Under the pieces are notes generated by a model. It ran no database searches. It was not told where the DNA came from and saw only the letters and a program-made list of their open reading frames with translations. The position numbers and the translations under genes are program-made. Below, one piece after another: positions 1-64,000 of a stretch of DNA of 64,000 nucleotides. The stretch comes from Trebouxia sp. TZW2008 (lineage: Eukaryota > Chlorophyta > Trebouxiophyceae > Trebouxiales > Trebouxiaceae), in contig BDIU01000400.1 in assembly GCA_002118135.1 (NCBI GenBank), forward strand, positions 64,544 through 128,543. Reading direction: 5' to 3'. Numbering within the stretch: the stretch's first letter is position 1; every line of letters starts with the position of its first letter.

Positions 1-300
1 AGAAAATGTCCATGTTATTGTGTCCTGCAGCTCCATGCAGCAGCACATCAACACAATGGAATCATGTTCCTGTAATTGGATGTCAAAGTCGTAAAGGCGT
101 TGATGCTACTGGTGCTGTGCGGTGCCTTGAGAAGACTTGAGAAGTTGTTTGTTATATACAGTTCACTGCTGCAGTTGACAAGTTGGCAGGCGACAGCAAA
201 CCTGAGTCTGACTCTGCTGGAGCCTGGGCAAGCTGCATTCTCTGAGCAATCTGTCTGTAGTCAACTGCAACCTGCAATTTGCGTTCTGCTCTTCTCATTC

Positions 301-548
301 AGCAGGTGGTATGGTCACTTTTGCAGCATGTCAGACAACAAATTGCCTAAAATCATGATGTTTGGTCGGGTCAAGAGCCCAAACCCACGGGGCCGATCTA
401 GGAAGATATGGGACGACATTGTTATGTCTCTTACGTGTTGAACATTAATCGCCCTTATTGTGACGCTCAGAACAAGCCAGCCTGGCGGGATAGGACTTGC
501 GCCACACACCCCTAGCACATGCGCTGGAAAGTGTAACCTTCATTATTA
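301..548 (+). mobile_element. 5'-truncated LINE tail (reverse-transcriptase ORF C-terminus and 3' UTR)
   Basis: The frame from about 301 reads RWYGHFCSMSDNKLPK, then GRVKSPNPRGRSRKIWDD, the usual C-terminal block of a LINE polyprotein (the RGRP...W.D motif). After a frameshift near 437 it continues [16 protein letters not shown], then WRDRTCATHP and a stop. The 3' UTR motif CTAGCACATGYGCTGGAA and an ATT-rich tail follow. Related copies lie at 41811-41945 and 60020-60245. It is dead: it is truncated at the 5' end and frameshifted. Confidence 0.8.
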
Positions 549-725
549 CTATTATTATTTAGCAGGCCCCCTGCCTGCATGACCTCAGTTTACATCTCCC
601 CCTGGTAGCTCAACAGTCCAGACCCAAGTCAGCCAGTACAAGCTGCACAAACAAATCAAGGTCATGCCTGATTGAAAGCTGGAACAGCAAATAACAACAA
701 ATGTCGCCTGTCACACATTTGACAC

Positions 726-864: not shown

Positions 865-3800
865 GCAGACTTCAACAAGCAGTTTGCTGCTGCTCAGAAG
901 ACCAGGCAGGCTGAGGTTGACAAAATCTCTGAGGCCAACGACCGCATGACTGAGGTATGGGAGGAGCTGGCAAGATTAGGATCTGCTGTCTCAGACAAGA
1001 CCCTCTTTGAGCCAAAGCCTAACATTGAAGACATACAGGACGCTGTCCTGAATGTCAAGGTACTGAAGCTGACTGTGGAGCTTGCATAACAAAGTTCTTG
1101 CTGCCAAATAGTGTCAAGCCAACCATGCCTTGCATCTTGGTTTGCATGTGAAGTCTGAGATAGAGTTCCTGTTCCTTTCAGGGCAATGCCATCCAGCATC
1201 AAACCTGTCCAAATTGTTACTCGCATCACAAGATAGTTGCAGTCGGCATTTGTCTGGTCCCCACTTGCAACTGTGAAAGTGCAGGACTCAGAGATCCAAG
1301 TGCCTCGGTACCTTTCAGCGCAAGAACGTGCCCGCCAAGCAGCAGACCAGGCAGAAGAGGAGGCACGCGCCAGGGCACATGCAGCCAATGACATCAGCAC
1401 TCGGGCACTGAAGCAGATGATGAACGGAAGCCCCACAGCTGCTGCTGGTGGGGAGGTGCAGGTGGCTGTCGTCAAGCCCCCCTGGATGGAGGGGGACCCC
1501 TCTCAGTTCACCCAAGACCAACAGCAAGAGGTCAGCCTGACTACTGCCGTATCCTCTGGTCTTCACTGTACTACACTTGAGGCTGTCAATGCAACTGCAA
1601 GGGGTTGCTTGTGGTGTTGTCTGCAAAGCACCTGCTGCCTTTGCATGCCCCTCTGGGTAGAAGAGGACCCCGCTCAGTTCACCCAGACCCACCGGAGGAA
1701 GCCAGCCTTGTTGATGGATTAATTGATTGATTTAGCGATTGATGGCCAGAGGAAGGAAGCAGTGGAATTGTGGAGTGCTTCTCCATTCATGCATGTCTTG
1801 ACCAACAGAGCGTTGTTCGAGAATCTTGCCAGCGTTCTTGTGATAAATCCTGCCAGGTTAAGGCTGGAGACCCCCTGCTTAGCTGGTCTTTGAAGCATCT
1901 TTGACGCAACTTGCATATCACCTGATGCCAAGACCACACCTTGCCTGATGTAAACGCTGCACATAATCTTATGCCAGGTCTGCACACTCACACAATGGAT
2001 ATCGTTTGATTGAAGAAAGAAAAGTAGACCCCGAAACAGGTCGGCTCTTGTTTTCCCAGAGCTTTAAACAAGGTCCAGATGATGTTTAGATTTAAAGTAT
2101 GGCCTCAAGACTCTTTCAAAAAGACATCCCGGGGATGATAAACAATTTTGCAGGTAAAGCTGTGGGAAGAGAAGGTGAAGGCTTTGGTGGAGGAGCGGCT
2201 CAAACTCAAGACAGCTTTTGAGAGTGAGCTCAGGACTCTGAAGGTCTCACAGGACAACTGGGCGCATGAGTTTGACGCCAGCCTGCTAGCACTGCAGCAA
2301 GTAAGCCTCTGACTCTGCTGCACTTGAACAGCCTGCAAGCCTGTAGTCAAGAACAGGGTCCTGACATCTGTCACAGATGCGCAGCACCCACATACTCTGC
2401 CAATGACTGAACTATTTGCACGGTGTGATGTGAGCCTGCTGGCGTTGCAGCAAGCAAAGCTCACCCTGCTGCCTGACCCAGCATGCCCACTGCCAAAGCC
2501 TTTATATATCATTGAGAAACTGTTTTGGCTCAGGAAAGAACCAAAAAACCAACAGCTTGATGCCGTAAGCAAAAAATTGGTGTGCAGGCCCGGCTTAACA
2601 AGGAGTAGCATATCATTCGGCTGAAGCTGCATAGGCTCAAAATTAGAAACGGCCTTGACTCTGCAATGACATCAACAATGACACCTGTGCAGACTTGAGA
2701 TAGCATCTTCAATAGCGCACTGTTGCCACCGCCACAATGAGGGCTCAACTGAGGGCGTTCCATCGACAAAGTACTTATTTCATCATTAATGAAGTACTTT
2801 GCAGGCTCGGCTTGACAAGGAGCAGCACATCAATCAGCTGGAGCTTCACAGGCTCAAGCTCACAGCCTCAGCTGAGCGCCTGCAGGATCTCAGCTCAGCT
2901 GCTGAGTTGACTCTGCACACTCAGCTGGCTGAGGCTGAAAGTAGCCTAGCTCAGAAGCAGAGTGAGCTGCGGGATATCACAGCGCAGCTGCAGGACTACC
3001 GGGAGGTCTTGGCTGCTCTGCAACAGGTAATCACCTCTGCATACCAGCCTGCTGATTACTGTCCAGGCACCATGCTTCAATCAATCAATCCACAGCTGCA
3101 TGCAATTTTGACTTGATATCCCAATACAAAACCAATGGTGAGCCTGTAACATCTGCAAGGCAAGTTTGGTCAATAGAGATGATTGAAAATCAACCAGGGA
3201 TGTGTGCTAGTGTCATTCACATCCTGCCAAACTAGCTTGCTCTTGGCGTTACAACAAGAACATGACATGTTTGACCATTCAAAGTCAGGCAAAACAACAT
3301 CTTCTCGTGCAACATCCCTTATGTGTTCAGATATGTTTGTCAACATGTACATATACAGTATTCATGTAGTCATAGTCTACACTTAATGATTATGTGTTCG
3401 AAATGCTTGAAATTCTTTCTTGATGTAGGATGACAAGGCATTGGACAAGGTCTTCAAGAAAGAGAGTACGGAAGCTGGGGAGGGCCTGGGTCAGCCCCTC
3501 TATCAGCTCTTCAAGAAGCGCACCAAGTGAGTTTTCTGTCCTTGGGACCCAACAGGGGTTCAACAGACAATATCCAAAACAAAACCAAAAAAAGACAGTT
3601 CAGCCATAGAGGGCTGACATAACTTGTTTCATGCAGTCATCAGCACGAAACGTATACTACATATAGTGCATTGGTTAGTTTTGTGCATATCTGCAAAAAA
3701 GCCATCAAATTTGACTTCGTGTCTGTAAGTTGTGTTTCTATTGCCCAGCACATGCCAGCAATTGACCTGTGATCTTTTGTGCCATTTTTATGACAGTGAC

Positions 3801-6800
3801 GTGACATCAAGCTTACGCGCTAGCACTTCTGGTTCTCACAAGGATACCTCAAGCTTGAAGTTTCTGTTGACCAGCACACGGCTACAGACCTGAGTGGTGT
3901 CATGCAGCAGACTGCAGTATTTCAAGCAAAGGCGTGAGCAGTTCAGCAAGAACTCTGGCTATTGATACAAACATACATACCGGCATGCTGCAGGCGGCAG
4001 GAAGGTGCTGCAGCAGCAGCAGCTGCTGATGCAGCTGACAAGAACATGTTCCCGCCACTTCCCCAAGCCCCAGCTGATGATGAGTCAGCCCTGGCAGCTG
4101 CAGTCGTCCTGGATGAGTCAACAGAGCGTCCTGATGGAGTGAATGATGTGTGGTGGAGACGCCTGCTGGAGGTCAGAAAGCAAAAATTCCTGCTTTGCCC
4201 TTGCTTGCTTTGCCTGCTGTGCTGTAACTGATGTGCTGTGCTTGCTGTGCTTTGCCTGCCATGCTTTGCCTGCTGCGCTTTGCCTGCTATGCTGTGACTG
4301 CAGTGTCTGCCACATCAGCCATCTGTGAAAGTGCTGAGGCCCTGCTGACTGGCGCACAGCTGGGCAATGCTTTTGAAATGTTGTCCATCAGAAACACTCT
4401 GGCCATCATTGAAACAGCAACTGCTTTGAATGTACATGCATAACTTCTTCACCTGTCTGCTGGTTACTGAACTTTATGAGTCTTGCCTCAACGTATACCA
4501 CAAGGTCTTGTGGCTGTCTTGTGCTGCAGTCAGGGTTTGAAGCAGCAGCTGAGATCAATTCCCCAAGACACCTCTCAATGAGCTTCCAAGTTCCAACACG
4601 ATGTATTCTGCCACAGCAAGTCCTGGCAGTGATGTATGGGTGCATGACAGCAAGATTGTGATGGTTTGAGTGTGATGTGTTCAGGTGCGGCAACAGAAGC
4701 TGGAGTATGAGTACCACATCAGGAAACAGCAGGCGGCCATTGCTATGTTGGCCTCACACCAGGAGCAGCTTCAGGTCTGCTTCAAGCTTGGCTTGACTTA
4801 TGCTGCCATCGCTATTTTGACAGATGGACATTGGGTGCATACAGACCTACACATATGCACAGTAAGGTTTGAGTAAGGTGATGGGTCATTTGCATTGCGT
4901 TGATTGTTGTGACATGATGTTGCACGCCATGTCATTGCAGTACAAGTGATCGCGTAGACACAAAGCTTCAGTGAACAACTGAACCATTGCTGCTGTAATA
5001 CTGCTTGCATAGCTGCTGAATACACAGGAAGACATCAGTTTTGCAGCAAGCTCATTGCAGATGGCCGATTGTGCGATTGTAAATGGCCAAATGCTCACAG
5101 AGGTATATGTTATGAGCCTTTGGCCATTCAGGTGGAACTTGCAGATCTGGGACGCTAACAGGCAAGCAAGCAATCTCAGTTAGCGCTCTTCCATGAGGGG
5201 AAAAGACCGACAAGGACAATTTTGCAACCTCAAGCACATTCCTTTCCCATTAGCGTACAACGACAACAAATTTGTCTTAAACTTTAGTCGTTGTAACTCA
5301 GGTGGATCTTGCTAATTTGGAAGGCCAACAGGCCAGCAAGCCCAGCTGTTCCAGGAGGAGGAGAGGAAAATTGCATAAGACAGTGGTACAGTCTTGCAGC
5401 TGAGACTGTAATCATACAGTAACAGTGGCATTCACTAAGGGCTGAAATCTTTGCCATTCAGGTGGAACTTGCAGATCTGGAAGGTCAACAGGCCAGCAAG
5501 CAGTCCCAGCTCACGCTCTTCCAAGAGGAGAAGAAGAAGTCTGAGGAGGATACTGACGTTCCTCTGAGACTCAAGCAAGGGCAGATTGAGGTTGAGACGC
5601 GAGGCATTGTGGACAGCAACCGAGATAATGCTGTGCTGATTGCTTTGCAGCTTGTACAGGTCTGTGCTTTTTAGCTGCCTGCTGAGACTTAGTGGTCACT
5701 TGGGCATGACAGTATCTGTGACACTGCCCACACCTGAGCTGATGCATATGCCGCACAATTGCACACACAATATAGATTTGACAGTTGCTGTTGCTGATGC
5801 TGCTGCATCTGTGTTGTACAGTATATGACATCCTTTGTTCTGCTGTTCTGCTTTGACCATAGCTGCCATTCAGCTTGCTGTGCTGCTTCTTCCTGAGCTG
5901 GTTTTTAGCTTGCCTAACCTGGTTTTGCAGTCAAGGCCAATGTGTCACTACTTGTCCGCTTTGACACAGCAGAATGGGCAGTGCTGTGCTGACTGCCTCG
6001 CTGCTTATAGTGTTTGCTGGTGCAAGCTTGCTTGACATGCTTGCGCCGTGTGGAAAGACGCTACTGTCAGAACGCATAGCATTGCAGCAGTAGTTGCTGT
6101 CACACATAGCATGCTTGCAGCAGTTATGGCACCTGTGTACGCTTGCTGGTACACATTTCTAAGTTCCATTAGGCCCTGCTGTAGCAGAGCCCGCACATCC
6201 AAACCAGCAATTCAGAATCAATCCTGACTGTAACACATCAGGGCTGGCCCTAACAACCCCAGTGCACCCCAGGGTAGCACCCCAATTGCCTCGCAGCTCA
6301 TGAAGGTCAGCTCTTTTCCTCCCCTGCTGGTGTCACACTCTCTGTCCAATTCACACAGCATTTGTCCCCGTTGTGTTCAGCTTGTCAAACAACAATGCCA
6401 GATGTTACCAATGGCCTAGTGCACGTTGCTTGCAGGAGTTGAACCAGGGAATACTGGCAGAGGGGAAGAGGAAAGAGAATATGGTGCAGGCGACCACTCT
6501 GTCTTGAGCAGATTGCAAAACTGTGGTGTTGAATCGTGCCGAAAAGCCAATTGATGATGGTTGTGCAGGAATTGAAGCAGGGCATTCTGGCTGAAGGGAA
6601 GAGGAAGATGGATCTGTTGCGGGCCACCGTTCTGTCTGGATTTGCCGCCAGACTTCAATGCCTGATTGTGACTGATGTCTTTTCAACGTGCATTCTGCAG
6701 GAGTGGAATCAGGGGATACTGGCAGAGGGGAAGAGGAAGGTGGATGTGGTGTGGGCCACCAGTCTGTCGGGAGTGGGTTGCAAAAATGCAGTGTTCAAAC

Positions 6801-8988
6801 GTGCCAAAAAGCTGATTGATGTGGATGGTGCAGGAATTGAACCAGGGGATACTTGCAGAGGGGAAGAGGAAGGTGGATGTGGTCCGGGCCACCAAGGACT
6901 TCAAAAAGGGCATCTACAGCCTGCAGTGGAACCACAACCGCTCCACCATGCAGGTGCTTCACCACAGTCTGTCTGTATGCTCCTGTGTGGTGCCAGCTTG
7001 TATATGACACCTTGCTTATGCTGCCTTGTACATGCACCATCTACATGTATGTGAATTGCTATATGTACGCTATACATAGACTCGACCCAGTGCATCAGAC
7101 GCGCCTGCTCCCCCACGGTGCCTTCTTCTGCTTGCGTCTATCATGGTTTAGGTGAGGACATGGTCGAACTGGTTGGAGACAGCTGATTGCTTCTGTACGT
7201 ACCTAGGTGGGCCTGCTGAGCCTGCCTAGCCCACGTTTACAATGAATGAATGAACGAACGAAACTGTGCTGATTGAGTATTGAGTGCTGCAGCCTGCACG
7301 TGCATATTGACCCTGCCCTTGTGTCACAGCACCCTGTGCATCACATGCACGACTGATATTGAGTGGACACTTGTATATGTGGCGGCAGCACTTCAAACTG
7401 TGGATGCTGAATCAGCAAAGACTGGTGCTTGCACCTGTTTGCAGGTTGGTATTTGGAAGGCGATTCGATTGGAGGCTAGCTTCTGTACTGCTTGCCATGC
7501 AGGCACATGAAGCATGACAAAAGGCATCATTTGTACCCATTCCTGCGTCACAGTCACATCACTTTGCAGCTCATACACTCACAGCCACTGTTGCAGCTCG
7601 GACAGTCACACTCACTTTTGAGCTGGACTGGTTATAGTCTCTTTGGCAACTCAGACAGCCAATGCTGCCGCTGTGTGCATGGCCCATCGGATCACGTCAT
7701 TGTGCTCTCTTTGGGACCCAACAGGGGTTCATACAGACAACGTCAGAAACAGGCGCGATTGAGCCAAAAAGGCTCTGAATGAAAGTCTGTCATCTGACAT
7801 GCAGGTGGCAGACCTGAGTGAGATTCTGAGGGAACTGCAGCTGCTGAGAGTGACCAGGGAGGTGCAAGCCGTCATTTCCACAGTGGGGGCGCAAGGGGGG
7901 TTGCCTGGGGGTGGGGCAGGCACCCTGCATCCAGCTTCCAAGGAGCTGCAAACCATTGAGGATGTCATGAAGCACAATGACAGGTGCATCTGCCAGCAGT
8001 GTGATGCTTGTTGATTTGTGGCTCACTGCAGACCTGACGCAGCTTGATCATTAGGCAGACATGCTGTTGCATGTGCCCCTACAAGCAGTGTGCTGCAAGT
8101 TGGCAATTGATTATGCATACTGCTTTGCAACCCACTGAATAAATCAACCAGCTTGGTGGCCAGCCATATTATGGCAGGTGCGCCTGTAAGCAGTGTGCTG
8201 ACCCTTCATTTATACTGCTTTGTGGCTCACCAATCTTGGAAACAGCTTGATCACCAGGCAGGCTTGTGATGAGAGTGCTGAGATGAGACGAACAAGCATG
8301 ACAAACTAACTCATGTCGTAGTGCAGCTGTGGTATCGAAAGTTGTCATGCTTGCTGCTCAGGCTCAGCGAGAAAAACATCAAGGAGCGCAAGGCCAAGCT
8401 GACGCGCCTTGAGGCGGCCATCAAGGACAAGCAGCATAAGAACGCAAAGCTCCTAAAGGTGCAGCTCCACTCCATGTTGTGTGTTCATGAAGTGGCCCTG
8501 TCTCAAACTGCATGTTGCTCGCCCATCGTGTGTCAAACCAGCCAGTTGGCACATGTTTGATTATGTTTGCGTGAGATGCTCAAACTGCTTCGTATTCACT
8601 TGCGGCCCCATTGTCAATGCGGATGCCTCTGCCATGTTTTACGGCCCAGTTGCCATTTGTGTGAAGCACAACAAGGCTGCAGTGTTGAACTCTGTAGCCA
8701 ATTCATGCCAATGCACAGTTTCAGTGATTGATGCAGGATGTGGATCAGGTCAGGGACAAGTTGGAGGCCACAGCACCATCAAGCCCACCCTCTAGCAAAT
8801 CACAAAGCCCACAGGCAAGACGCATGCGCAATCTGGCAACACAAAGGCAGCTCAGGGATATTGCTGCAATGCAACAGGAGCGAATGGGTCAACTGCAGAC
8901 AGAGATTGTCAATTTACACAAGCGGTCTTTCCCATCATTTGCCCAGCAGACCGTTGTGTACCCTGATGAAATAAACAACATTCTGTGA
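865..8988 (+). CDS. CFAP43: CFAP43-like cilia- and flagella-associated protein (C-terminal half, partial)
   Basis: Twelve phase-consistent exons are visible: 865-1059, 1285-1530, 2154-2300, 2805-3026, 3429-3526, 3994-4171, 4685-4774, 5462-5659, 6834-6953, 7805-7983, 8362-8458 and 8737-8988 (stop). Together they encode about 673 residues, mostly coiled coil. Family landmarks are RALKQMMNG followed by KPPWMEGDP, the charged stretch LWEEKVKALVEERLKLK, LYQLFKKRTK, and LQLLRVTREVQ close to the C-terminus. CFAP43 works with CFAP44 in the tether/tether-head complex that anchors the inner-arm dynein f motor domain in motile cilia. The WD40 N-terminal half would lie left of the window. The end reads DEINNIL-stop. 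CFAP44 is the main alternative. The introns are crowded with partial copies of neighbouring exons. Confidence 0.78.
1636..1693 (+). repeat. Copy of the 3' end of the 1285-1530 exon
   Basis: This segment repeats the part of the preceding exon that encodes PPWMEGDPSQFTQ, here reading LWVEEDPAQFTQTHRR. It lies about 160 bp downstream of the original and no longer ends in a clear GT donor. It is a decayed exon copy inside the intron. Confidence 0.65.
2424..2460 (+). repeat. Copy of the 3' end of the 2154-2300 exon
   Basis: The sequence around AGCCTGCTGGCGTTGCAG repeats the exon end that encodes SLLALQQ. The donor GTAAGC has become GCAAAGC, so the copy has lost its splice site. Confidence 0.6.
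2584..2645 (+). repeat. Decayed 5' copy of the 2805-3026 exon
   Basis: Preceded by GTGCAG, it reads ARLNKE, a stop codon, then HIIRLKLHRLK, against ARLDKEQHINQLELHRLK in the working exon 220 bp downstream. The in-frame TAG shows it is a pseudo-exon. Confidence 0.7.
3540..3620 (+). repeat. Dispersed hairpin element A, copy 1
   Basis: It begins with TTGGGACCCAACAGGGGTTC, continues to an ACAGACAAYRTC block, and ends in a small hairpin CAGCC-loop-GGCTG followed by ACAT. A second copy (7710-7795) ends in GAGCC-loop-GGCTC, a compensatory change. A third, inverted copy starts the same way at 16437-16488. All three lie in introns. Confidence 0.65.
5129..5370 (+). repeat. Two decayed copies of the 5462-5659 exon start
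   Basis: Copies start at about 5131 and 5302, each preceded by a CAG acceptor. They correspond to VELADLEGQQASKQSQ of the working exon at 5462. The first has substitutions and a frameshift within the repeated block; the second lacks several bases after QQASK. Spacing between the three starts is about 160-170 bp, so this is a tandem array of an exon start with its acceptor. Confidence 0.75.
6431..6953 (+). repeat. Four-copy 132-bp tandem array of a CFAP43 exon
   Basis: Copies start at 6436, 6569, 6701 and 6834 (spacings 133, 132, 133), each preceded by TGCAG. All encode a variant of ELNQGILAEGKRK. Only the last copy continues into DFKKGIYSLQWNHNR and a donor (CAG/GTGCTT), so it is taken as the real exon. 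The first three break off after the equivalent of RAT into CTGTCT, and the intervening intron-like spacer is itself repeated. Confidence 0.85.
7157..7262 (+). repeat. Dispersed element B with GAAT/GAAC-repeat tail, copy 1
   Basis: The block GGTTGGAGACAGCTGATT followed by CTAGGTGGGCCTGCTGAG ends in a tail of GAAT and GAAC units (about 7240-7262). The same core is present in reverse complement at 62945-63013 and partly at 18742-18800. A simple-repeat tail suggests the 3' end of a SINE or LINE-like element. Confidence 0.6.
7710..7795 (+). repeat. Dispersed hairpin element A, copy 2
   Basis: Same head as copy 1 (TTGGGACCCAACAGGGGTTC), with a terminal hairpin GAGCC-AAAAA-GGCTC. It ends about ten bases before the acceptor of the exon at 7805. 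Confidence 0.65.
7980..8245 (+). repeat. Repeated donor-proximal intron block
   Basis: The start of the intron after the exon ending at 7983 (GGTGCATCTGCCAGCAGTG) recurs near 8071 and 8177 as variants ending AGCAGTGTGCTG. It is followed each time by related TTTGTGGCTCAC and CAGCTTGATCA words. The unit is about 95-105 bp and includes the exon/intron junction AGGTGC in the first and third copies. Confidence 0.6.
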
Positions 8989-31500: not shown

Positions 31501-32396
31501 ACCTTGACCTTAACAACACCATCACTGTACTTTGAAGCTGTACACAGGGCATCAGAACATCAAGGCTTGCATCCACTGTGCATGTGCAGGGACCATCTTG
31601 GCTACTACAGCGCCCTTGGGCTGGAGCCAGGAGCTGCCTCATTGCCTGCCATCAAAAAGGCCTTCCGGCAAGCTGCTCTCATTTGGCACCCAGACAGGCA
31701 AAAGGTCTGTCACATTGCCTTGCTTAGCCTGCCAAAGCTGCAATTTCATTTATGCACTGTGTGGCTTCCGATTGGATTGATGAAAAAGCGAGCATCTGGC
31801 ACCTTGACAGGCAAAAGGTCTGTCACGTTGCCTAGCTCCCTCTGCCAAAACTGCGTTCTACTATCCACTTTGTGCCTTCTAATCATTCTTCTGGAAAAGC
31901 AAGCTGCAACCACCGCTGCAAGTCTGCTGCCTCAACTTCATCTCAGACAAACTGTCTGCCATGTTTGACTGCACTGCACTTCAACTTCATTGGCAGAAGT
32001 GCAAGTCATGCTTAGGCAGCATGCCTGCTTTGTCTTTGTTGATTTGCTTGGCATGTTGAGGTCATATGCTGTATCTGCCCCCTTGTATTTTAGAAGACTG
32101 ATACTGTATCATATAACAGTGACACCAACTGGTCAACACAAATCACTTTCTGGCTGCAAATCAAGTGCACTCACGCTGATCTAGCAAATCAACGCCGTTT
32201 GGCCGCTCAGCCATTTCTAAAAAGGCAGCCTTAGCTTGAGGAAGGTGGCTCACAGAGACAAGATGCTGTGCAGGATGGGGCCGAACAGCGGGTGCTTGCT
32301 GAAAAGCGCTTCAGAAAACTACGCAGTGCATATGAGGTGCTCAGAGACCCTGAAAAGCGGCGGCAGTATGACAGGGGTGAAAGCATACAGAGCTAG
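25565..32396 (+). CDS. J-domain (Hsp40-like) protein with bacterial-like N-terminal module
   Basis: Twelve exons: 25565-25682, 25778-25836, 25938-26081, 26402-26515, 27099-27308, 27673-27874, 28348-28533, 29447-29583, 30420-30589, 30982-31074, 31590-31704 and 32274-32396 (stop), 556 residues, all phases consistent. The first exon (MRIERSWTALLCARRAV) looks like an organelle targeting peptide. The middle follows a pattern I know from bacterial membrane proteins: VVPFQISLQSAQDKFEQW, WLSPRRVL, PVLLPFWLFEAAIKIEY, VVYLPAYVVDYNFG, then VVSGRGEGVVAAERHY. One hydrophobic, probably membrane segment follows (LISFGLAPLLNLTAPALL), then a charged helix. The C-terminal J domain has YYSALGLEPGA, IWHPDRQ with the HPD triad, and YEVLRDPEKRRQYDRG. 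It probably recruits Hsp70 at an organelle membrane. Substrate unknown. Confidence 0.8.
27900..28045 (+). repeat. ATTC/CTTG simple-repeat tract in intron
   Basis: A degenerate run of ATTC, ACTC, GCTT and ATTG tetramers directly after the donor at 27874 in the J-protein gene. No coding role is apparent. Confidence 0.7.
28525..28675 (+). repeat. Duplicated exon end and donor of J-protein exon 7
   Basis: GCAGGTGATGTATCAGCACC at the exon 7 donor (28530) recurs at about 28633 as GCAGGTAAGACATCAGCACC. Both continue TGCTGC. The copy has an even better donor (GTAAGA) but no open exon in front of it. Confidence 0.6.
29340..29960 (+). repeat. Copies flanking J-protein exon 8
   Basis: Upstream, 29347-29382 repeats the exon 8 start (GTCTGGCAGCTCAGCTGG). 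Downstream, the exon end VDKYAAMGLGPHHIGDDEQE plus donor recurs at 29632-29694 (VDKYVATGLGPKHIGNDEQE plus GTGAGG), at 29772-29843 (VVKYAATGLSPHNIGNDEQK plus GTATGT) and as a stub at 29938. Two of these keep an open frame and a donor, and each is a multiple of three relative to the exon end, so they could serve as cassette extensions. Confidence 0.85.
30053..30419 (+). repeat. Three decaying copies of J-protein exon 9
   Basis: Copies begin near 30053, 30172 and 30308; the working exon begins at 30420. The first encodes LVRSNVEWQRWEEADK with an open frame, but its acceptor AG has become CG. The second has a 1-bp deletion and several changes. The third has an in-frame stop and is barely recognisable. 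Spacings are 112-136 bp. Confidence 0.85.
31790..31830 (+). repeat. Copy of the J-domain exon 11 end
   Basis: TCTGGCACCTTGACAGGC plus AAAAGGTCTGTCAC repeats the end of exon 11 (HPDRQK plus donor). HPD has become HLD, so it could not supply a working J domain. Confidence 0.7.
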
Positions 32397-52286: not shown

Positions 52287-53094
52287 ATGCAATTGCGCTG
52301 TTTACCATCGCAAGGTGTACTTTGTGGCTACGCGCGCACGATTTCATCCTGCGGCAATCTTCGGCAACTGCCAGCAACTGACCGGGGTAGTGCAAGTGTC
52401 AGCAAAGCCGTACAGGCCAAAGTTCTTGCTCGGCCGGTATGCCAGCAACAGTCACGCCTCCAGAAACAGGAGTCAGTCGCTTGGCCGGCATTGGACTTGC
52501 CGCGCCTACACGCGCAGGTGTTCGCAACAGTCACTTGAACCTCCTTTGCTGCTTTGCCACGTGCATATGTATTTCATCACTTGTATCTGTCGCAGTCCCC
52601 ATCGATCCGCCTTAGACAGCACGTTAATCCCTTCACGCCAAGCCTTCAGGCAAGTCGACACAGTGGCAGCTCAAAGCAGCCTGCCGTTTTGCAATGAGTA
52701 CCCCAACGAAAAAGAAAGCTCAAGAGACAAAGCAAAAGTCTATCCTGTGATCCACATCCAGTTTTCATGTGCGGCTAGGAATAATCTTTGGCTAGATTCA
52801 GCTTGAACAGGGCCAAAGATTGCAAACACTGACAAAAATGCATAGGCGTCATAGCAGGAGCCTTTGTAAACTTATATCTTGGGCAAAACAGTGTCTGAAG
52901 ACATCCACCAATGCCGAAGTGAACAGAAGCAGCCCGGCAGTGGCTGAACACCATGTGTTGTCGCAGGCGCCAGTGCCACCTCTTGCCTGGCCAGAAATCT
53001 ATGCAGACGCCAATAGGCCTTTGGTCGTGGATGTGGGCTGCGGTAAATCCCAATGCTGTTTATCACAGTCATTGCTTGCTTGGTTGCTTGCTTG

Positions 53095-53154
<60 letters not shown>

Positions 53155-56100
53155 CCGCTTTGCTTTTGCAGCCATGCTGGATGCTGACACTGCTTCCATC
53201 AGTGCTTGGCAGCGCTCTGCTGGTGACAAGGTGTGATTCAATGACCACTTTGCTTGCAAGCCCAGACAACAGGTGTTCCATGCGTTGCAGGCCCAGGCAG
53301 GTTTCCTCTAGCCCTAGCAGCCAAGCTCCCTGACCATAACATTCTTGGCATAGACATCAGAGGCAAGGTAATCCCCTTCAGGCTCCTATCATTCCACAAC
53401 CCTGCTTTGTGCTTTGTGGTGTGCCCCACTCACAGCGTTTTTGGCATAGACAGCAGAGGCAATTTGATGTCCTTTGAGCGCCTATGGCTTCTGCATTGCT
53501 ACCTTGTGCTTTCATTTGTGTTCCATTCGTGAGCCAAGCCTCCAGGCCACAACATCCTTGGCATAGACTTCAGAGGCAAGGTGATGCCCTCCAAACTCCT
53601 GTTAGTGTGGCATCGCTCCCTTGTGGTTTCACTTGTGTCCCATTCATGAGCCCAGCTTCCAGGCCACAACATTCTTGACATAGACATCAGAGGCAAGGTG
53701 ATGGCCCTATAAGCTCCTATCATTCCGTAGACCTCCCTTGTGCTTTCATCGGCCACAACATCCTTTGCATAGACATCAGAAGCAAGGTGATGCCCTCCAG
53801 GCTCCTATCATTCAGTAGACGTCCCTTGTGCGTTCAATTGTCCCCCATTCATATGCCAAGCCACAACATTCTTGGCATAGACATCAGAGGCAAGGTGATG
53901 CCCCTATGAGCTCCTGCCAAGTCTGCATCAATCCCATCTTCTTTCTGTTGTGCCAGCTCCACGCTACAGATTGCTTAAGCTATCGCGCGAGCCCAGGTAT
54001 CAGTGCAGCAACCACAGCAGCAGGAGCTTTGCGTTCACATTGGATGCTGCATAAGTGTAGGCTTCCAATGTTGTCTGCAACCTTATTTAGTGAGCTTGAA
54101 TTGCAGCTGATGGAGAGAGCCAACACCTGGGCTGAGCTATCAGGTGTCAGGCCACAGTGCATTTCCGCTTATCCAATGCCGTAGTGTCCCTGCAAGTTAT
54201 AATTGCATGCTTAAGCGTTTGTGTGGCCTGCAGCTAATGGCGGGTGCTAACACCTGGGCTGAGCTATCAGGGTGTCAGGCCACAATTCACTTTCTGCATC
54301 ATTGATTTGCCAGCTGTCTTGAAGTTCTGGATTTATGCTGTGGCCATTGGGTTTGTGTTGAAAGCATGTTGTTCTGTGGCCTGCAGCTGATGGCAAGGGC
54401 CAAAGCCTAGGCTGAGCTATCAGGCTGTCAAGCCACAGAGGACTTTCTGGAGTATTCATTCTGCAGCTGTCTTGATGTTCCGGTCTCATGCCAAAGTTAT
54501 TGATGTGATCTACAGCTGCTGCAAAGGGTTGACACATGGGCTGAGCTATCAGGATGTCAGGCCACAGTGCCCTTTTTGCATCACTGATTTGCCAGCTGTT
54601 TTGAAGCTGTCTCTAGATTTATGCTGTGGCCATTGGGTTTGTGTTCAAAGCATGTTGTTCTGTGGCCTGCAGCTGATACAAAGGGCCAAAAACTAGGCTG
54701 AGCTATCAGGCTGTCAAGCCACAGAGCACTTTCTGGAATATTCATTCTGCAGCTGTCTTGATGTTCCGGTCTCATGCCAAAGTTATTGATGTGATCTACA
54801 GNNAGGGTTGACACATGGGCTGAGCTATCAGGATGTCAGGCCACAGTGCCCTTTTTGCATCACTGAGTTGTCAGCTGTCTTGAAGTTCTAATTTTATGCT
54901 GCAGCCATTGTGTTTATGCTGAAAGCATTTGTTCTGTGCCCTGCAGCTGATGGAAAGGGCCAACACATGGGCTGAGCTATCAGGGTGTCAGGGCACAGTG
55001 CACTTCCGCCTAGCCAATGCCACAGTGTCTCTGCAAAGCATGCTGTCGAGCTACCCTGGTCCCATCCAGCTTGTCACCATTCAGGTACAGTAGCATTTGG
55101 TATCAGGGCAACATAAGGACTCACAGTTTGACACCAGGATACAATCTAAGGACAATATTGTTGTAAGACAAACGTCACAAGGTCCCTGCAAAGCATGCTG
55201 TCAAGCTACCCTGGTCCTGTCCAGCTTGTCACCATTCAGGTGACAGCACAAAGCAAGCTTGCATTGATTTCATGGTGAACAAAGTGGGTCAATAACCAAA
55301 GCGCAGAGCAAGCCTGCAGTCATCAATGCCAAGATTGCATGCGTCAGAACATTGTGTGGCAAGCATAGCAAGCAGCAAAATGTTGCTGAAACTTCCCATG
55401 AGCATTCAGCCCCCTGACATTGTACTCTTTGAAGTTTTGGTGCTGTAGTTGAAACTTTTAGAAGTGTATTTTTTGATAGGGAGTTTGATCAAGTTGAAGG
55501 CTTTAGAGCCTGCAGCTTGTTTTGCGCTTTGGTATGAGTCAAAACTCAATGGTGTTTCATGCAGGCACATCCAAATCTGGCATCAAACCATCTGTTTGAC
55601 AGATGGTTTGTTGCTTTTCCTTTGTCATAGAATCTGCAGCCAGCTTGTTGTGCTGTGCTTTCGACGTCCTCTGACTGTACTGACTGTACTGGAGCTGCAG
55701 AGTCAAGCGTTCTGACGTTTTTTGCCTGTTGTGCAGTTCCCAGATCCTCACTGGAAACTACGCAACAGGAAGAAGCGTATAGTGCAGCCTCAGCTTGTGA
55801 AGGCAGTTGCCAATCTTTTGGCGCCTCAGGGGCAAGTGTTTCTTCAGTCTGATGTACAAGAGGTGGGAACATGCAAGCGCATTGCATCAGATCCATCTGA
55901 AGTTGCTCGACAGCAAGAAGCGCACTGTGCAGCCACAACTCGTGACAGCAGTAGCCAAGCTGTTGGCTGCTCAAGAACAAGTGTTCCTGCAATCATGCTG
56001 TTGTGTGACAGGTACGCTTCATTGCGTGCAATGCAGCTGACATATGGGTGATGAGAAAAAGCACTATGGTGCTGTTGTGTCTTGCAGGTAGCTGTGTCCA

Positions 56101-57458
56101 TGCGCGACGAGTTGGAGTATCACGGTGAAGGAGCTTTCAGTATGGCTCCCAGAGCACTCATAGCAAAATGCAGGATTTCCACACCAACCAAATGACTGCT
56201 CTTTGTATCTGAACCTTTGGCTGGATCAGTTTAGGCTACACTGGTTGTTGTATTGCAGGTAGCTGTGTCCATGCGTGACGAGTTTGAATACCACGGTCAA
56301 GGAGCTTTCAGTATGGCTCCAGAGCACTCCCAGCAAAATGCAGTTTTCCACACAGACCAGATGACCTCTGCAGCATTGCCAAAGGACAGCCTTGAGCGCC
56401 AAAGCTGGCAAGCAACATGGCAGAAACATGGATGGCTTCATCAAAACCCTTTGGTAGGTTATGTGACTGCATGGGTCAAGCTTGTATGCCTTGTTAGTGT
56501 CCTGTGACGTAACTCGCAAGAGCATGTACGCCTCAGCTAGTGAGTTGAGGGTGTCTGCAGCTGAGGTTGTGGTGAAGCTGTCTGTGCTGCCTGCTGCGCT
56601 GCCGCTGTCAGTCACGAGCAATAATGCACAGGCAGTAATTCTCAGGTGATGCCATGAATGTCTACCTGAAGAAGACACCAGTACCAATGAAAGCTTGTAT
56701 GCCTTCATTGACACTTTCTGCAAGTGCAAGGCTGCAATTTGAATGGCTTCACCAAAAGCTTTTGGTAGGTTTGTGACTGCATGGCAGGAACAAGGATGAC
56801 TCGATCAAAATCCCTTGGTGGGTTCTGTAATTTTAATCATGGCAAATGTTTGGATGACTTCAGGCAGGTTTTGTTGGCAGGGTCTGCGACTGCAGTCATG
56901 TATACAGCACACGAGCAGATCATTATCAATGATGTGTAGGATGCTGTAGTCTGATGTGATGCCGCCTAAACGTTTGGGATGACAATAATCAGCTGCGTTG
57001 TCCCTGCGTGGCTCTTTCACCTGATGCATGCAGCAATGTCTCTTCCAGCCTAATGCAAGGAAAGCTTTGAGGAAAGCTGCTTGCAAATGTGTCTCAAACT
57101 CTGTTGTGTTGACGTGCATGCATGCATCAATCTTCCTCAAGCATACACTTGAGAAAGGCTGCTTGCAGATGGCTTTTGAGTGTTCTTATATTCTGTTCGT
57201 GTGGATGCCTGCAGCAATGTCTTTTCAAGCTCATGCAGCAATGTCTTTTCAAGCTCACATCTGAGGAAAGCTGCCTGCAGATTTGTTTCAACAAACTCCG
57301 TGTTGATGTGGGTGCAGGGTGTACCAACAGAGCGAGAGGTTCATACAGCTGATAATTCATGGCCTGTTTATCGAGTTTTGCTGAGCAAGGTGAAGTCACA
57401 GGTCACAAATTCACCTGCAACCTACACTCAACATCACGGTCGTGAAGCTGATGATTAA
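52287..57458 (+). CDS. trmB: tRNA (guanine-N7-)-methyltransferase, TrmB family, probably organellar
   Basis: Seven exons: 52287-52517, 52967-53042, 53291-53367, 54947-55084, 55737-55862, 56259-56453 and 57318-57458 (stop), 327 residues in phase. Exon 1 is a Gln/Arg/Ser-rich leader starting MQLRCLPSQGVLCGYAR, which suggests plastid or mitochondrial import. The SAM-binding core is PLVVDVGCGPGRFPLAL, HNILGIDIRGK and ERANTWAEL, then LANATVSLQSML and the TrmB signature FPDPHWKLRNRKKRIVQP. The C-terminus has HGWLHQNPLGVPTEREVH. This is the bacterial-type enzyme that makes m7G46 in tRNA, as in plant organelles. Intron 3 (53368-54946) is 1.6 kb and consists largely of copies of exons 3 and 4. Confidence 0.92.
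53080..53156 (+). repeat. (CCTG)n microsatellite in TrmB intron 2
   Basis: About fifteen perfect CCTG units (53095-53156), preceded by a short TTGC run, starting some 40 bp after the exon 2 donor. The minus strand reads an artificial GRQA peptide repeat. Confidence 0.95.
53420..53915 (+). repeat. Five copies of the TrmB exon 3 end with donor
   Basis: The block encoding HNILGIDIRGK plus GTGATG recurs with its CATAGAC word at 53445, 53562, 53679, 53768 and 53876, after the true exon end (CATAGAC at 53349). Spacings are 89-117 bp. Several copies keep the coding sequence intact and donor GGTGATG, but only the first has the SAM motif GCGPGRF in front of it. Confidence 0.9.
54100..54946 (+). repeat. 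Six upstream copies of the TrmB exon 4 start
   Basis: Acceptor plus LMERANTWAELS recurs at 54107, 54234, 54387, 54516, 54673 and about 54802, before the complete exon at 54947. The first copy is nearly intact (LMERANTWAELSGVRP). Others have stops or frameshifts. Copies 3-4 and 5-6 form a near-identical 286-bp higher-order repeat, and two undetermined bases (54802-54803) sit in copy 6, so the assembled copy number may be wrong. Confidence 0.9.
55170..55243 (+). repeat. Copy of the TrmB exon 4 end with donor
   Basis: CTGCAAAGCATGCTGTC through GTCACCATTCAG/GTGACA repeats the last about 60 bases of exon 4, 157 bp downstream, with an open frame and an intact donor. Confidence 0.85.
55584..55610 (+). 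other. Perfect 12-bp inverted repeat with 3-base loop
   Basis: CAAACCATCTGT - TTG - ACAGATGGTTTG in TrmB intron 4. It forms a strong hairpin in RNA or single-stranded DNA. No function is assigned. Confidence 0.8.
55885..55990 (+). repeat. Decayed copy of TrmB exon 5
   Basis: Begins GATCCATCTGAAGTTGCT and reads SKKRTVQPQLVTAVAKL, then LAAQEQVFLQS, parallel to the real exon 5 (RKKRIVQPQLVKAVANL). The conserved FPDPHW start is degraded, so it would be catalytically dead. Confidence 0.85.
56084..56165 (+). repeat. Upstream copy of the TrmB exon 6 start
   Basis: GCAG/GTAGCTGTGTCCATGCG encodes VAVSMRDELEYHGEGAFSMA, nearly the same as exon 6 at 56259 (170 bp downstream). It diverges with a frameshift after MAP. 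Confidence 0.85.
56730..56830 (+). repeat. Two copies of the TrmB exon 6 end
   Basis: ATGGCTTCACCAAAAGCTTT/TGGTAGG near 56741 and GATGACTCGATCAAAATCCC/TTGGTGGG near 56797 repeat the exon end encoding GWLHQNPL plus donor and following intron bases. Confidence 0.8.
57020..57312 (+). repeat. Repeats ahead of the last TrmB exon
   Basis: GAGGAAAGCTGCYTGCA recurs near 57070 and 57266, with a variant near 57152, and CAGCAATGTCTTTTCAAGCTCA is repeated at about 57212 and 57236. Together they look like duplicated intron ends. Confidence 0.65.
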
Positions 57459-58569: not shown

Positions 58570-61500
58570 GAAATAGTGACACAGAACCAGATCCGGCAGA
58601 TGGTTCCACATCTTGCCAATGCTCTTTGCCTTGACACTGGCCAAGTTGCATCTGCCGTGACTCATGCACTTGCCTCCCTAGCTGACACAGCAGAGGTGGG
58701 TGGTGGTCTCAATCTGGAGTTTGGCCACATCTGCAGGTACTATACACGTCTTGTTTCAAGGCTTTACTAAGCAACTGCAAAGCGCCACTTGGCCTGCACA
58801 CACTGTCAATGCAAATTTGCCCTCATGCAGCTATCATATCACAAGTGTTTTGACCCTGAGCTCCAAAAGTAGCTTTGAAGTGAAGTTACTGACCCCACCC
58901 AAACCCATGCTGCATGTTGCTTTGCATCACGGCGCATTGGCATGTGCATATGTGCATTGGACCCATCTCACCTAAGGCTTCAGCTTTGTTTGTGCAGGAA
59001 TAGTGCTTGTCACAGCATGCGCTGCGAGCTATGCCAACACAACCCACACAAGAAGTGTCAGCGGCATTTTGACAGGAAGTATTTGGTGGCCGAGCTGCTG
59101 AAAAGTGTGTGTGGAGCAGACTTGTTTGTACAGCTCACAAATGGTCATGGCAATCCAGCTACAGATACATTGCGTTCGAGCCTGTTCCTGCAGGTCAGTA
59201 TGATGCTCATGCTGATAATCATCTTTCCAGCATACATTGCTAGTGTGTGGCACAAGTCCTGCTATGCACAGCAGACAGTGCCAGCAAATGCAGATATGTG
59301 CTACAAAGCTTTGCCATTGAGCGGCAGTGGTTCAGTGCATTTGAGATGCATAGCAGATAAGCTCCGGTAGATGCAGACATGTGCAATAGAGCTTTGGCAT
59401 TCAGCAGCAGTGGATGTGTACGCCTGTCCAAAAGCAAGTTACAATACCTTCTCTGTACAACTGCCTGATACCAAGGAAAACAGCCCTACATTGCATTGTC
59501 CTTACTAAGAGATACCACTGCAATCAGAATGCAGTGGTCTGCTACAAATCGCCTTGTTATTCCTTTGAGAATGTCACTATATTAGGTGTCTTTGTGAGGA
59601 GAAATGACTGTACTGACATTTTCTTGCATGCTTGGCAGGTAAACTTGATAGACAGCAGAGCATATCACGGAGTAGGCGCAGATTGTACTGCCACTGATAG
59701 CCTTCTGGAGTCCTGCACTCTTCGCGAGAATAAAGCTGTAAGTTCCCATCACATCGTTTGCTAGTGCCCTGCTGTGCATACATGCAGGTCAGCAATGTTC
59801 TTCACTGCTCGTGGTGCTGCGTGAGAGCTGCATGAAGCTGTGATTGCTTACAGACATGTCTTGGTCATGTCTTGCCCATCAGGCATGATGGATGGCACAC
59901 CACATTGACATGATCGTTGAACATGGTGCTCTTGGGCTGCCTCTGGAGAGAGAGGCTCCTGCAAAGACGCCAAACGGCATACACTTTTCTTGATTTGTTT
60001 TCTGGTATGACCACGTTTGCAGGATGTTAGATAACAGGTTGCCTGGAATCATGCTGTTTGGTCAGGTCAAGGGCCCAAACCCACGAAATTGGCCTAGGAA
60101 GATATGGAATGTCATGTTTTGTCTGACTCTCACATATTGAACATCCATCATCCTTATCGTGACGCCTGGGACCAGAACAAACTGGCCTGGCGAATAAGAC
60201 TTGGGCCACACACACCTAGCACATGTGCTGGAACGTGTAACCATTTGCTATTCATTATTGTATGTTTTCTTAAATCCTGGCATGCAGGACAAGCCTTTGC
60301 TTACCAGCAATGATGAGGGACACACATTGGGGCATAGTGTGATCATTCCAATGACATATTCCAAGGTGCCGCTGTCCAAGTTGTACATTACAGGTGAGGC
60401 TGTTGTAACAAATTTGAAGTGAAAAGTAGTAGCCCTGTTGTGGCAGGCTGGGCGTGGTGTACTTTCAGGCCCATTGACAGTATTGAATGCCAAGTTATGG
60501 CCGTTACAGCTGTGCTGTCATTTGATGTGTTACAAATCTGTATTCTGGTCAAATCCTGTCTTGCAGTTCACAGTTGAGCTATGCTGCTGAAGCTACCAGC
60601 ATCAGATTTGGTCTCGTCGCATGACCTGCAAAGCTGCCATGTACAGGCACAGCTGTCATTTACGTTGCAGCAATGCCCAGGTGCCCGCTTCCTTCAAGAC
60701 TATCAGTGTATGCGATGTACAAGAGCTTCCCAGCGGGCAGAAAGCCTTGTCTTGCCCTGTTGCTTAAGTGACGTTCATTGGTCACATGTCAATCAGCAAG
60801 CAATCTGATTGCAAGATGGGTCATGATCCTAAAGATCTATCATGATGCAGACAGCTCGGAAGCTCTGATGGCAGGCCGCAAACCACCAATGCAGCTTGTG
60901 GTGCGAGTCGTCAATGCACAGCATCAGGTCATATCATCCATCCCACCCTTACTGTCAGAGGCATTTGTGGTGAGTCCTGCTTCATTTCTCTGAAGCTTTT
61001 GAGGACACAAATGCAAGATGATGTGTCATGACGTTCAAGAGTTCCCATTGCATGGTATGAGTAATGTGCTCTCAGGCTGTGCCAGCACTTGTACTGAACA
61101 TCCATTATATGCAATTGTGTGATTGGTTTTGATGCTGATCTCAGGTTGCACCAGTATGCATTTGTAAGTAGCCTGCACTGTTGGCAGACTCAGTAAGGTC
61201 TTGATGCTATTATGTCCTGTTATCAGCACACATTTACTGTACATCTACTTTGCATCTACTGTCATGCAGGTCACAACTATCAGATCAAGTGCCCGTAAGC
61301 CAGACATTCCATTCATAACAGACCTAGTGCACAAGCTAGAAGCTGTAGGAAAAGAGACAGTGGCAAAGCTGAGGGATGTCCAGGCAGCAGCTAAGGCGTC
61401 TTCAAATGCTTCTGATGCTGCCACTTTACAGGACTTTACAGACCGGATGTGCCATATTGAAACTGGTAACCTTTCTGCCTGCTTTGGTGTAAACTGCTTT

Positions 61501-64000
61501 GTTATGCCGATATTGGCAGCATGCTCACTTTGGTCACTGATGACGTATAGCATGATGGTTTTTGTCAAGGATGTCAGCTCTCTTCACATGCGCTAAGGTG
61601 TTGCCACTCTACAGGACTGTATGGACTGCATGCGTGATACTGAAACTGGTAATATTTCTGCCTGCTTTGGCATGAATAGTCTGCCTGTGCTGTATCTGGC
61701 AGCATGCTTCAGAAAAAGGAAACAAACAGAAAATGCTGTTAGGTGTCATAAAGGGAGGCTCTTTCTGTAGAGGCAGCCCGTAATTTCTGCTATGAGAGCA
61801 ACAATCAAGCATGCTTCGTCATGGTCTTGATGGCTTGTGAGATGATGCTTGTCAAGGGCGACAGTTGCTACCACACGAAGCTAGCAGGACCATAGGCAGT
61901 TCAAGATGCTAATAAAAAAATTGTAGCAGCTGCTTACACTCAGGTGTAGCATGCATGATCAACGTTTGAGTTATGAACACTGACCAACCTGTCTTGCAGT
62001 CAGCAACTTCAGCAAGTGAGTGCATTGGTGTGAGCAAACATGAACATTAATCAATGTTTTGTTGCAGTCGGCGACTTCAGCAAACTAGTGCACTGGTGTG
62101 AGGAATCCCCTGAGAGAACCAGGTCCTGCCAGAGGGTACTGAAGTTTGTTCGGGGGTGGGACACTGCAGCAGCGCATGCAAAAAGGGCAGTGTCAGAGGA
62201 CTCCTGGCCTAGAATGTTCTCGATCGAGCCTGCCATGACCCTGGTATATGCATGCAAGCATGGGAAGGTGGACATGACAAAGATTTTAGGTGAGTCTGCA
62301 ACTCACTGGACACAGTTTATCAGATCTTGAGACTTGAATGTCTGAGAATCACAGCATGTCTGCTAGTGGTCGTCAGCAGAGAATGTCAGTGCGCTGCCTT
62401 CACAGCTTGTGCCATTAGCACGGTGGTCGTAAATTTGGCAGTTGTAGATCAGAAGCAAAGCGTCAAGCTTGTGCTGCGCGAGCGACCTGCCAAGCCTTGT
62501 AGCTCTTGTCGTGTCGTTTGCAATGTGGAGTGGCGTGCAGGTTGCGGGCAAACTGTGCCTGCTGTCGACGGAGCAGACGCTCAACTGACTGCAATCACTG
62601 ATGTTGAGCGGCATGACCAAGACCTTGTGCTTGCGCTGCGCAAGCAGGCACAGCGACAATGGCACGAGACTGGACATCCCGGCTGGCAGCTTGTTCCTGC
62701 AAGCACCAGGATCGAGACTCTGCTGCCACAGAAGCTTGCAGGCTCTTTGTCACTGGTAAGCTGCCTTGACCTATCGTCCTTAGCATTGCTGTTCTGCAAT
62801 CAATTTATGTGTGTTTTCTTTTGACTGTACATGATTTCACCCTATATTGCACTCAGTGATTTGCAAGGTCCTGCCACCTGCTTAGTCTTGTCAAAATCCA
62901 GCCTCTGTGTGCTGTGCCATGAACTTGTCCTTTCATTTCATTCAAGGTGCATGCTAGACAGGCCCACCTAGGGGCATACTGAAGCAATCAAATGTCTCCA
63001 ACCAGCATGCTAATTTGAACCGTCTACACTGAACATGGAGGGTGGATATCCTTGCCAAGCTGTATATGCACAACTGCTGCAGGGTGACCCAATGGCATCC
63101 AGCTCAGCTATGACCCACCCATGGAGCCTGTCAGCACCTTCTTCAGAAGCTGCAAACGCATCTGCTTCAGCAGCTGACCACAGATACGATGTGCCTGGGT
63201 CTAGCTCAGATGACTCCAATGGACGCAAGCGCAGCAGGCACCAAGTGGAGGACTCACATATGTTGCTCAAGCAGCACACTGGGCAAAGTACTTTCAATGC
63301 CGTACAGGTGACTAATGCAGCTTGATGTGAATCCAGCCGATGTGTGCTTGTTCTGGCAACTTCTGCTTTTTGTTTGAGTGCATGGCTTGCTTCTGGCAAA
63401 TGTCAGGTATCATTGATCATTACTTGCTGCAAGCTTCTTGATGCTGTACATTTGTACAAATGCTTGCAAGACGGTTTGCTATGTATGGTGCCTGTGCACA
63501 CAATGTCCGCAAACGCATAGTAAATGGAACGATCATCCAAAGTTCTGCCTGCTTGAGGCAATGCTGACTTGTATCATGTCAGCATTCTCATCATAGACAC
63601 TATCATGATGTCCTCACCTATTATGCATGCTGATAGCCCTTTCTTCTCATCGCCGTCGTCATTTGCAGGAGCACACAGAGTCATGGCCAGAGACTGAGCC
63701 CAATGGACTGATTCCTGCAGCTACACCAGAAGCTACGTATCTGCCTGCACCATTTACACATTTTACTGGCCTGCATATAGGTAAGCGTCCTGTTGCGAGG
63801 CGTAAGTAAGAGGCTGCACTCATGTTGTCAATGTGACATCGGAAGTGTAGTCATGCGGATTGCACTTGATGCAATATGCAAATGTCTGGCAACATGATGC
63901 TCATTTGCAGTAAGTGTCATTTTGGCTGTTGTTGCAATGATATGCGGCAGGCTTGCGTCACAGACAACCACCCATGATTGTTCTGGCCATAGTTGACTGC
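58570..64000 (+). CDS. Green-algal-restricted protein of unknown function (partial, runs off the window)
   Basis: Eleven phase-consistent exons: 58570-58736, 58998-59193, 59639-59737, 60288-60393, 60851-60969, 61270-61465, 62068-62289, 62442-62755, 63041-63307, 63669-63780 and 63951 to the edge. The first exon is missing. Order of features: an amphipathic helical start (QIRQMVPHLANALCLD), a Cys/His cluster (MRCELCQHNPHKKCQRHF), a beta-rich middle (LPLSKLYIT-like, then LMAGRKPPMQLVVRVV and LLSEAFVVTTIRSSARKP), a helical block (LVHKLEAVGKETVAKL, CQRVLKFVRGWDTAA, LVYACKHGKVDM), a second Cys-rich block (KPCSSCRVVCNVEW), and a Ser-rich segment with a likely nuclear signal (GRKRSRHQ). I recall unnamed proteins with this same order in Coccomyxa- and Chlorella-like algae; I cannot check that here. 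A nuclear regulatory role is only a guess. Confidence 0.7.
59270..59425 (+). repeat. Duplicated intron block in the last gene
   Basis: GCAGATATGTGCTACAAAGC at about 59290 and GCAGACATGTGCAATAGAGC at about 59374 begin related units of about 84 bp, both continuing TTTGSCATT and AGCAGTGG. Confidence 0.65.
59508..59617 (+). repeat. Dispersed hairpin element D, copy 2
   Basis: Second copy of the element at 39160-39265, with the same perfect CCACTGCA/TGCAGTGG hairpin (59515-59537). It lies in the intron before the exon at 59639. Confidence 0.7.
60020..60245 (+). mobile_element. 5'-truncated LINE tail in the last gene
   Basis: Begins RMLDNRLPGIMLFGQVKG, then GPNPRNWPRKIWNVMF, followed by frameshifted HHPYRDAWDQNKLAW and WRIRLGPHTPSTCAG. 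The end CTAGCACATGTGCTGGAACG matches the tail at 301-548. It lies about 45 bp upstream of the exon at 60288. Confidence 0.8.
61608..61690 (+). repeat. Copy of the 61270 exon end with donor
   Basis: GTTGCCACTCTACAGGACTG through GAAACTGGTAATATTTCTGC repeats the end of the preceding exon (ATLQDFTDRMCHIETG), its donor and 20 bases of intron, about 180 bp downstream. Confidence 0.8.
61742..61785 (+). repeat. Dispersed hairpin element C, copy 2
   Basis: GGTGTCATAAAGGGAGGC, a CTCT/AGAG hairpin and GCAGCCCG match the block at 11247-11290. Confidence 0.45.
61992..62035 (+). repeat. Decayed copy of the 62068 exon start
   Basis: TTGCAGTCAGCAACTTCAGC then AAGTGAGTGCATTGGTGTGAG mirrors the acceptor and first codons of the next exon (VGDFSKLVHWCEE) about 70 bp later, with a small deletion. 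Confidence 0.8.
62945..63013 (-). repeat. Dispersed element B, inverted copy
   Basis: Read on the minus strand: TGGTTGGAGACATTTGATTG then CCCCTAGGTGGGCCTGTC, matching element B at 7157-7262. It ends just before the exon at 63041. Confidence 0.7.

Follow-up and report, generated by a model that had tools for sequence, protein, structure and literature searches.

Genes of the Window and Copies of Their Exon Edges

The DNA analysed here, referred to below as the window, spans 64,000 nucleotides of the genome of the green alga Trebouxia sp. TZW2008 (contig BDIU01000400.1, positions 64544-128543; the genome comprises 68.5 Mb in 527 contigs), has a GC content of ~49%, and contains six or seven genes that carry decayed copies of their own exon edges. 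Gene models were obtained with a small gene finder that trained itself on the sequence and learned splice signals near TGCAG/G for the acceptor and AG/GT for the donor (the slash marks the junction); by these self-trained models, GC replaces GT at 22 of the 175 donors of confident predicted exons in the 284-kb enlarged sample described below. The finder overlooks some exons, such as those of the PGAM-like gene and a later exon of the TrmB-like gene, and the class termed non-exonic therefore includes some exon sequence. The joined window exons matched the Pfam families CC_Cfap43 (2.5e-78), DnaJ, NAD_kinase, GMPPB_C, DJ-1_PfpI, and Methyltransf_4, with further matches in the window to His_Phos_1 and RING families; two of the eight joined proteins had no match in the main Pfam search of joined exons, and scanning the window for Rfam families and tRNAs gave no hit. 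The methyltransferase, which is TrmB-like, is also similar to solved tRNA (guanine-N7) methyltransferases. The CFAP43-like gene occupies positions 865-8988; CFAP43 is a protein of cilia, and the alga may form swimming spores.

Copies of own exon edges were found in the CFAP43-like gene, the histidine-phosphatase/PGAM-like gene, an unnamed gene at 26-31 kb, the DnaJ exons at 31.6-32.4 kb, the NAD kinase gene, the TrmB-like methyltransferase gene, and an unnamed gene at 60.9-63 kb. An earlier sequence-only reading had counted at least seven such genes; the number is six or seven, the DnaJ exons possibly belonging to the same gene as the unnamed one at 26-31 kb, with no stop seen between them. 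The individual features are as follows:

1644-1708, plus strand: copy of the end of CFAP43-like exon 1285-1530 (source 1473-1538; Pfam CC_Cfap43), spacing 171 bp
2583-2640, plus strand: copy of the start of CFAP43-like exon 2805-3026, including the TGCAG acceptor, spacing 217 bp
5120-5368, plus strand: two copies (5120-5206 and 5298-5368) of the start of CFAP43-like exon 5462-5659, from the self-comparison
6431-6894, plus strand: array of ~3.5 units of 133 bp with four TGCAG acceptors, the last unit containing the start of CFAP43-like exon 6834-6953
13351-13751, minus strand: four copies of the AHEGCRE-coding piece of the PGAM-like gene (His_Phos_1), 113-121 bp apart, any one of which may be the working copy
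13854-14099, minus strand: two copies of the VVVSPMVRTLE-coding piece of the PGAM-like gene, 213 bp apart
29519-29844, plus strand: three copies (29519-29586, 29627-29690, and 29777-29844) at predicted exon 29456-29688 of the unnamed gene at 26-31 kb
30036-30237, plus strand: two copies (30036-30121 and 30158-30237) of the start of exon 30420-30589 of the same unnamed gene
31793-31879, plus strand: copy of the end of DnaJ exon 31590-31704 (Pfam DnaJ) and of the following intron, spacing 113 bp, frame broken
41569-41595, plus strand: copy of the end of NAD kinase exon 41244-41501 (source 41482-41508; Pfam NAD_kinase), spacing 87 bp, under the threshold of the window self-comparison
53363-54946, plus strand: TrmB-like intron, 88% local copies, first of the upstream exon end (to 53915), then of the downstream exon start (from 54102)
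55176-55246, plus strand: copy of the end of TrmB-like exon 54947-55084 (source 55021-55090), spacing 155 bp
56074-56196, plus strand: copy derived from source 56244-56365 at the start of a later TrmB-like exon, spacing 170 bp, each with TGCAG
61581-61670, plus strand: copy of the exon end 61399-61487 of the unnamed gene at 60.9-63 kb, spacing 182 bp

A homologue search with window positions 6533-7051 gave no scored match. The TrmB-like gene region also contains a (TGCC)n microsatellite of ~18 units at 53072-53156.

Local Direct Repeats in the Window and in the Genome

Comparison of the window with itself yielded 46 direct and 2 inverted matches at distances below 3 kb, which form 17 clusters, whereas three dinucleotide-shuffled versions of the window gave no matches; the presence of partial exon copies beside working exons is thereby confirmed. 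The sole inverted pair of the window below 3 kb is an imperfect inverted repeat at 42724-43180 with a palindromic centre at 42851-43146. The self-alignment check that had been proposed with the sequence-only reading was extended to 17 ten-kilobase stretches, taken at a single fixed coordinate on every fifth contig: clusters are present in 16 of the 17 stretches (64 clusters in total), with 116 direct vs. 11 inverted matches at less than 1.5 kb. With five further stretches added, the enlarged sample amounts to 284 kb, in which 9.7% of bases lie inside a recognizable copy (8.8% in the window, 9.9% elsewhere). The window is typical of the genome for local copies, and the exon-copy observation is real and genome-wide. 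Local repeats also occur in non-exonic DNA: the share of bases inside copies is nearly the same for confident exons and for the rest of the sequence (10.3 vs. 9.5%). As judged from this genome alone, the density of duplications is seemingly high.

In 86 of the 92 clusters of the 284-kb sample, the shortest distance between copies is 58-213 bp, in an analysis that covers spacings of 40 bp and above, so the earlier estimate of roughly 90-170 bp was about right. The fullest 20-bp bins are 100-140 and 160-180 bp, with a mere hint of a second mode near 160-185 bp. Among 142 pairs of at least 50 bp and with spacing below 400 bp, none has an identity of at least 95%, 3 fall at 90-95%, 23 at 85-90%, 39 at 80-85%, 37 at 75-80%, and 40 lower; overall, the copies diverge from each other by about 5-35%. 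An alignment covering 0.8 or more of the spacing is seen in 34% of 53 non-exonic pairs and in 14% of 56 one-exon pairs.

Four copy-bearing segments were searched against the genome, in a search that ignores very common words, and each matched only its own locality, one of them also a local copy ~150 bp away. This fits the earlier statement that no element class explains the copies, which are direct, local, and not dispersed, as small tandem duplications are. A separate, dispersed repeat lies at window positions 303-540 and 60003-60242, with shorter pieces near 41841-41915 and 16311-16387, and recurs in at least 40 further places in the genome; its sequence resembles the 3′ terminus of a LINE reverse-transcriptase gene with a TTATT-rich tail behind it.

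Direction of the Copies Relative to Exon Edges

The copies mostly follow a direction rule. Within 1 kb, exon starts (n = 154) have a copy upstream in 20 cases and downstream in 3, whereas exon ends (n = 152) have a copy downstream in 17 cases and upstream in 5; the contrast between starts and ends is significant (Fisher p = 1.8e-5). Non-exonic 60-mers (n = 1900) have copies upstream and downstream about alike (87 and 93), and reverse-complement matches number 0 for exon starts, 0 for exon ends, and 18 for the non-exonic 60-mers. We explain the rule by survival, since the duplications that survive would be those leaving the working exon joined to its body.

The odds of finding a copy in the allowed direction are 2.4-3.3 times higher at exon edges than in non-exonic DNA. 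Simulated detectability alone yields ratios of 1.2-1.4, 1.8-2.8, and 3.6-6.2 at per-copy divergences of 9, 12, and 15%, respectively. Detectability can explain the excess at exon edges, and copies cover nearly equal fractions of exon and other bases; thus, duplication targeted to junctions is not needed, and the suggestion that junctions are special targets is not upheld.

Decay of the Copies and Their Intron Side

The copies are mostly partial and look dead, judging from their sequences. In 42 exon-copy alignments, which count some pairs from both sides, mismatches at codon positions 1, 2, and 3 amount to 116/1083, 98/1068, and 224/1067 (10.7, 9.2, and 21.0%), a ratio of about 1:1:2 that is predicted for one free and one constrained copy, and 24 of the 28 indels break the frame; both observations support the relaxed selection that had been proposed earlier. 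The splice dinucleotide is retained in 29 of 39 pairs (GC accepted as donor), and stop codons occur in 4 of 28 ungapped copies, against a neutral expectation of 19-25%. Taken together, the codon mismatches, the indels, and the near-neutral stops do not show the coding constraint on both copies that functional tandem exons would have.

On the intron side of the junction, similarity is significant (p < 0.05) in 16 of 34 testable pairs. This bears out recurrent local duplication, across junctions in many cases; the stronger statement that copies begin exactly at, or span, a junction holds in part, with no intron-side similarity in the other 18 pairs. Of the 14 strongest pairs, 11 have a colinear intron match (tolerance 16 bp), and several copy alignments end 5-13 bp past the junction. 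Where alignable, the intron side diverges by 25%, compared with ~10% at codon positions 1 and 2, as expected if both intron copies drift. The codon-position pattern is alike in pairs with and without intron-side similarity.

Intron Length and Intron Gain

Between confident exons, 18 of 91 introns contain a copy, and their median length is 460 bp, compared with 359 bp for those without one (p = 0.008). The greater length of copy-bearing introns is consistent with intron growth, but longer introns also offer more room for copies. The clearest case of an intron built of copies is the TrmB-like one at 53363-54946. The duplications may drive intron growth, as the earlier reading proposed.

Birth of whole introns by tandem duplication of an AGGT-bearing exon segment was considered as well. 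Only 2 of 370 predicted introns show >60% identity at an offset equal to the intron length, and both are weak candidates (L014 573-700 and L010 9462-9528, minus strand; length equal to the offset between similar ends).

Copies Elsewhere in the Genome and in Related Genes

A whole-genome Pfam search revealed three tandem copies of an exon of an XPG_I-family nuclease (contig C57:178778-179254), whose donors are GT, GT, and AT, an instance of the graded decay that had been described for the window. The whole-genome hits of Cpn60, DEAD, and GTP_EFTU, read by eye, contained no tandem array like that of XPG_I; 32 of 123 DEAD candidates were scored, and Pfam searches of this kind have little sensitivity for decayed pieces of 50-100 bp.

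Homologues were collected at the protein level from frames called on other assemblies, 54 via the window NAD kinase exon and 50 via the GMPPB-like exon. A scan for internal repeats flagged 4 of these 104 proteins; one is a glycine run, and the other three are NAD kinase homologues, so that 3 of 54 carry their own copies of the exon. In P0051, 11 identical residues (3 from the intron and 8 from the exon start) are repeated at 66 bp; an exon-end copy occurs in P0096 at 150 bp and an exon-start copy in P0078 at 96 bp. The copy in the window, at 87 bp, is absent in that frame from P0057, P0060, P0064, and P0065 (by eye; the frames are long enough). Copies of the NAD kinase exon seem, from these comparisons, to have formed more than once.

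Origin of the Copies

We consider it likely that the copies were left behind by local tandem duplications of small size, with units mostly of ~60-210 bp, that are widespread in the genome. Such duplications would strike the genome widely; where a unit spans an exon-intron junction, the gene would stay correct only if the spliced copy is the one joined to the exon body, and the other copy would be stranded inside the intron and decay. Dead copies would thereby come to lie upstream of exon starts and downstream of exon ends, lengthening introns from their edges. The exon part would remain recognizable longer than the intron part, one of the two exon copies and both intron copies being free to change. 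The duplications may originate in replication or break repair, by offset-nick fill-in or mis-joined Okazaki flaps, which would fit the spacing ceiling near 210 bp.

Several observations weigh against this explanation. The chief one is that a neutral tandem simulation, computed at the observed exon identity and without large insertions or deletions, expects intron-side similarity in 79-91% of pairs, whereas the observed count at that threshold is 11 of 29; the gap could be closed by large insertions and deletions or by a spaced kind of duplication. To this are added the 18 of 34 testable pairs that lack intron-side similarity, the 3 of the 14 strongest pairs in which the intron match is not colinear, and the aligned stretches that are mostly shorter than the spacing, outside predicted exons as well. 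The detectability ratio at 9% divergence stays below the observed odds ratios, and the repair or replication step is hypothetical. Young copies are also scarce. Since a steady process should have young copies and few are seen, the duplication activity here has probably fallen, or the youngest copies were merged in assembly; the portrayal of the copies as a continuous source of new exons is thus doubtful for this genome, yet the relative with the 11-residue identical copy speaks for it.

The same shortage of intron-side similarity, greater than the simulation expects, would suit a process tied to splicing or to splice-site DNA that copies the exon edge together with the splice site, leaving out the adjoining intron, and inserts this copy close by, as would the alignments that stop 5-13 bp past the junction. 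Such junction-bounded copying appears improbable to us, given that the intron is included in 16 of 34 pairs, that the same repeats occur in non-exonic DNA, that some arrays at ~165 bp spacing are regular like tandem units, and that the splice dinucleotides show no special retention. Their presence in 29 of 39 copies, together with copies that are open and in frame (e.g., 6431-6894), could instead be read as a sign of tandem or mutually exclusive alternative exons maintained by selection; the partial state of most copies, the frame-breaking indels, and the lack of a strong third-position excess in the mismatches make this very unlikely. Introners are reported mainly from fast-evolving lineages such as green algae (PMC9860276), and a dispersed LINE-like repeat is present in this genome. 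A mobile or introner-like element bearing splice sites would, however, place one sequence family in many genes, whereas each copy family resembles its own exon and the four segments searched match nowhere else; we regard such an element as having next to no probability. No more credible is an assembly artefact: collapse could partly account for the missing near-identical pairs, but ~5-35% divergence is beyond assembly error, and proteins from other assemblies carry the same kind of copy.

Small local tandem duplication is a known mutation class, and the interest of the present case lies in the density, the spacing ceiling, the edge-wise growth of introns, and a clock within one genome. The formation of small tandem duplications (PMC8355091), a boundary duplication in potato (PMC4974935), and degenerate intronic exon copies (PMC12343006) are already described. 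In human and plant genomes, small tandem duplications are made at DNA breaks by fill-in (PMC8355091); they are likewise short, direct, and local, but mostly <100 bp, whereas the spacing here is mostly 58-213 bp and the density looks high. The potato RdRp gene has a tandem duplication over an intron-exon boundary and another of 83 bp within an intron (PMC4974935); in potato, the duplication yielded a spliced exon and a newly gained intron, whereas the copies here look dead and intron gain is confined to the two weak candidates. The Exonize catalogue reports matches of exons within introns of their own gene, some of them partial or crossing a boundary, as common in eukaryotes and fewer in lower eukaryotes (PMC12343006), and its degenerate or intronic exon duplicates resemble ours. 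Duplications from faulty maturation of Okazaki fragments are described for yeast and human cells in which a defect or an inhibitor was at work (PMC12633238); the XPG_I gene family is present in the alga, and a link is hypothetical. In titles and abstract openings, with subscription papers mostly outside the search, we found no account of such exon-edge copies in these algae.

Implications for Intron Evolution

The source of intron length and of new splice sites is an open question, for which transposons are a frequent answer. In the present case, the trace of an ordinary mutation class lies next to a constrained original, so that neutral decay can be measured from a single genome, and the direction rule, with copies upstream of exon starts and downstream of exon ends, is open to testing in any genome. 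The resemblance of the copies to exons calls for caution in gene finders. If density and spacing ceiling vary by lineage, this would suggest that replication or break repair differs too. As a broader and distinctly tentative proposal, a green-algal clade may have, or may once have had, tandem duplication acting across the whole genome, with units capped near 210 bp by the geometry of replication or chromatin, strongly enough to build introns from their own exon edges; the dead copies, each next to its constrained original, would be a dated record of this regime in many genes. The dead copies would be a readable record of intron growth.
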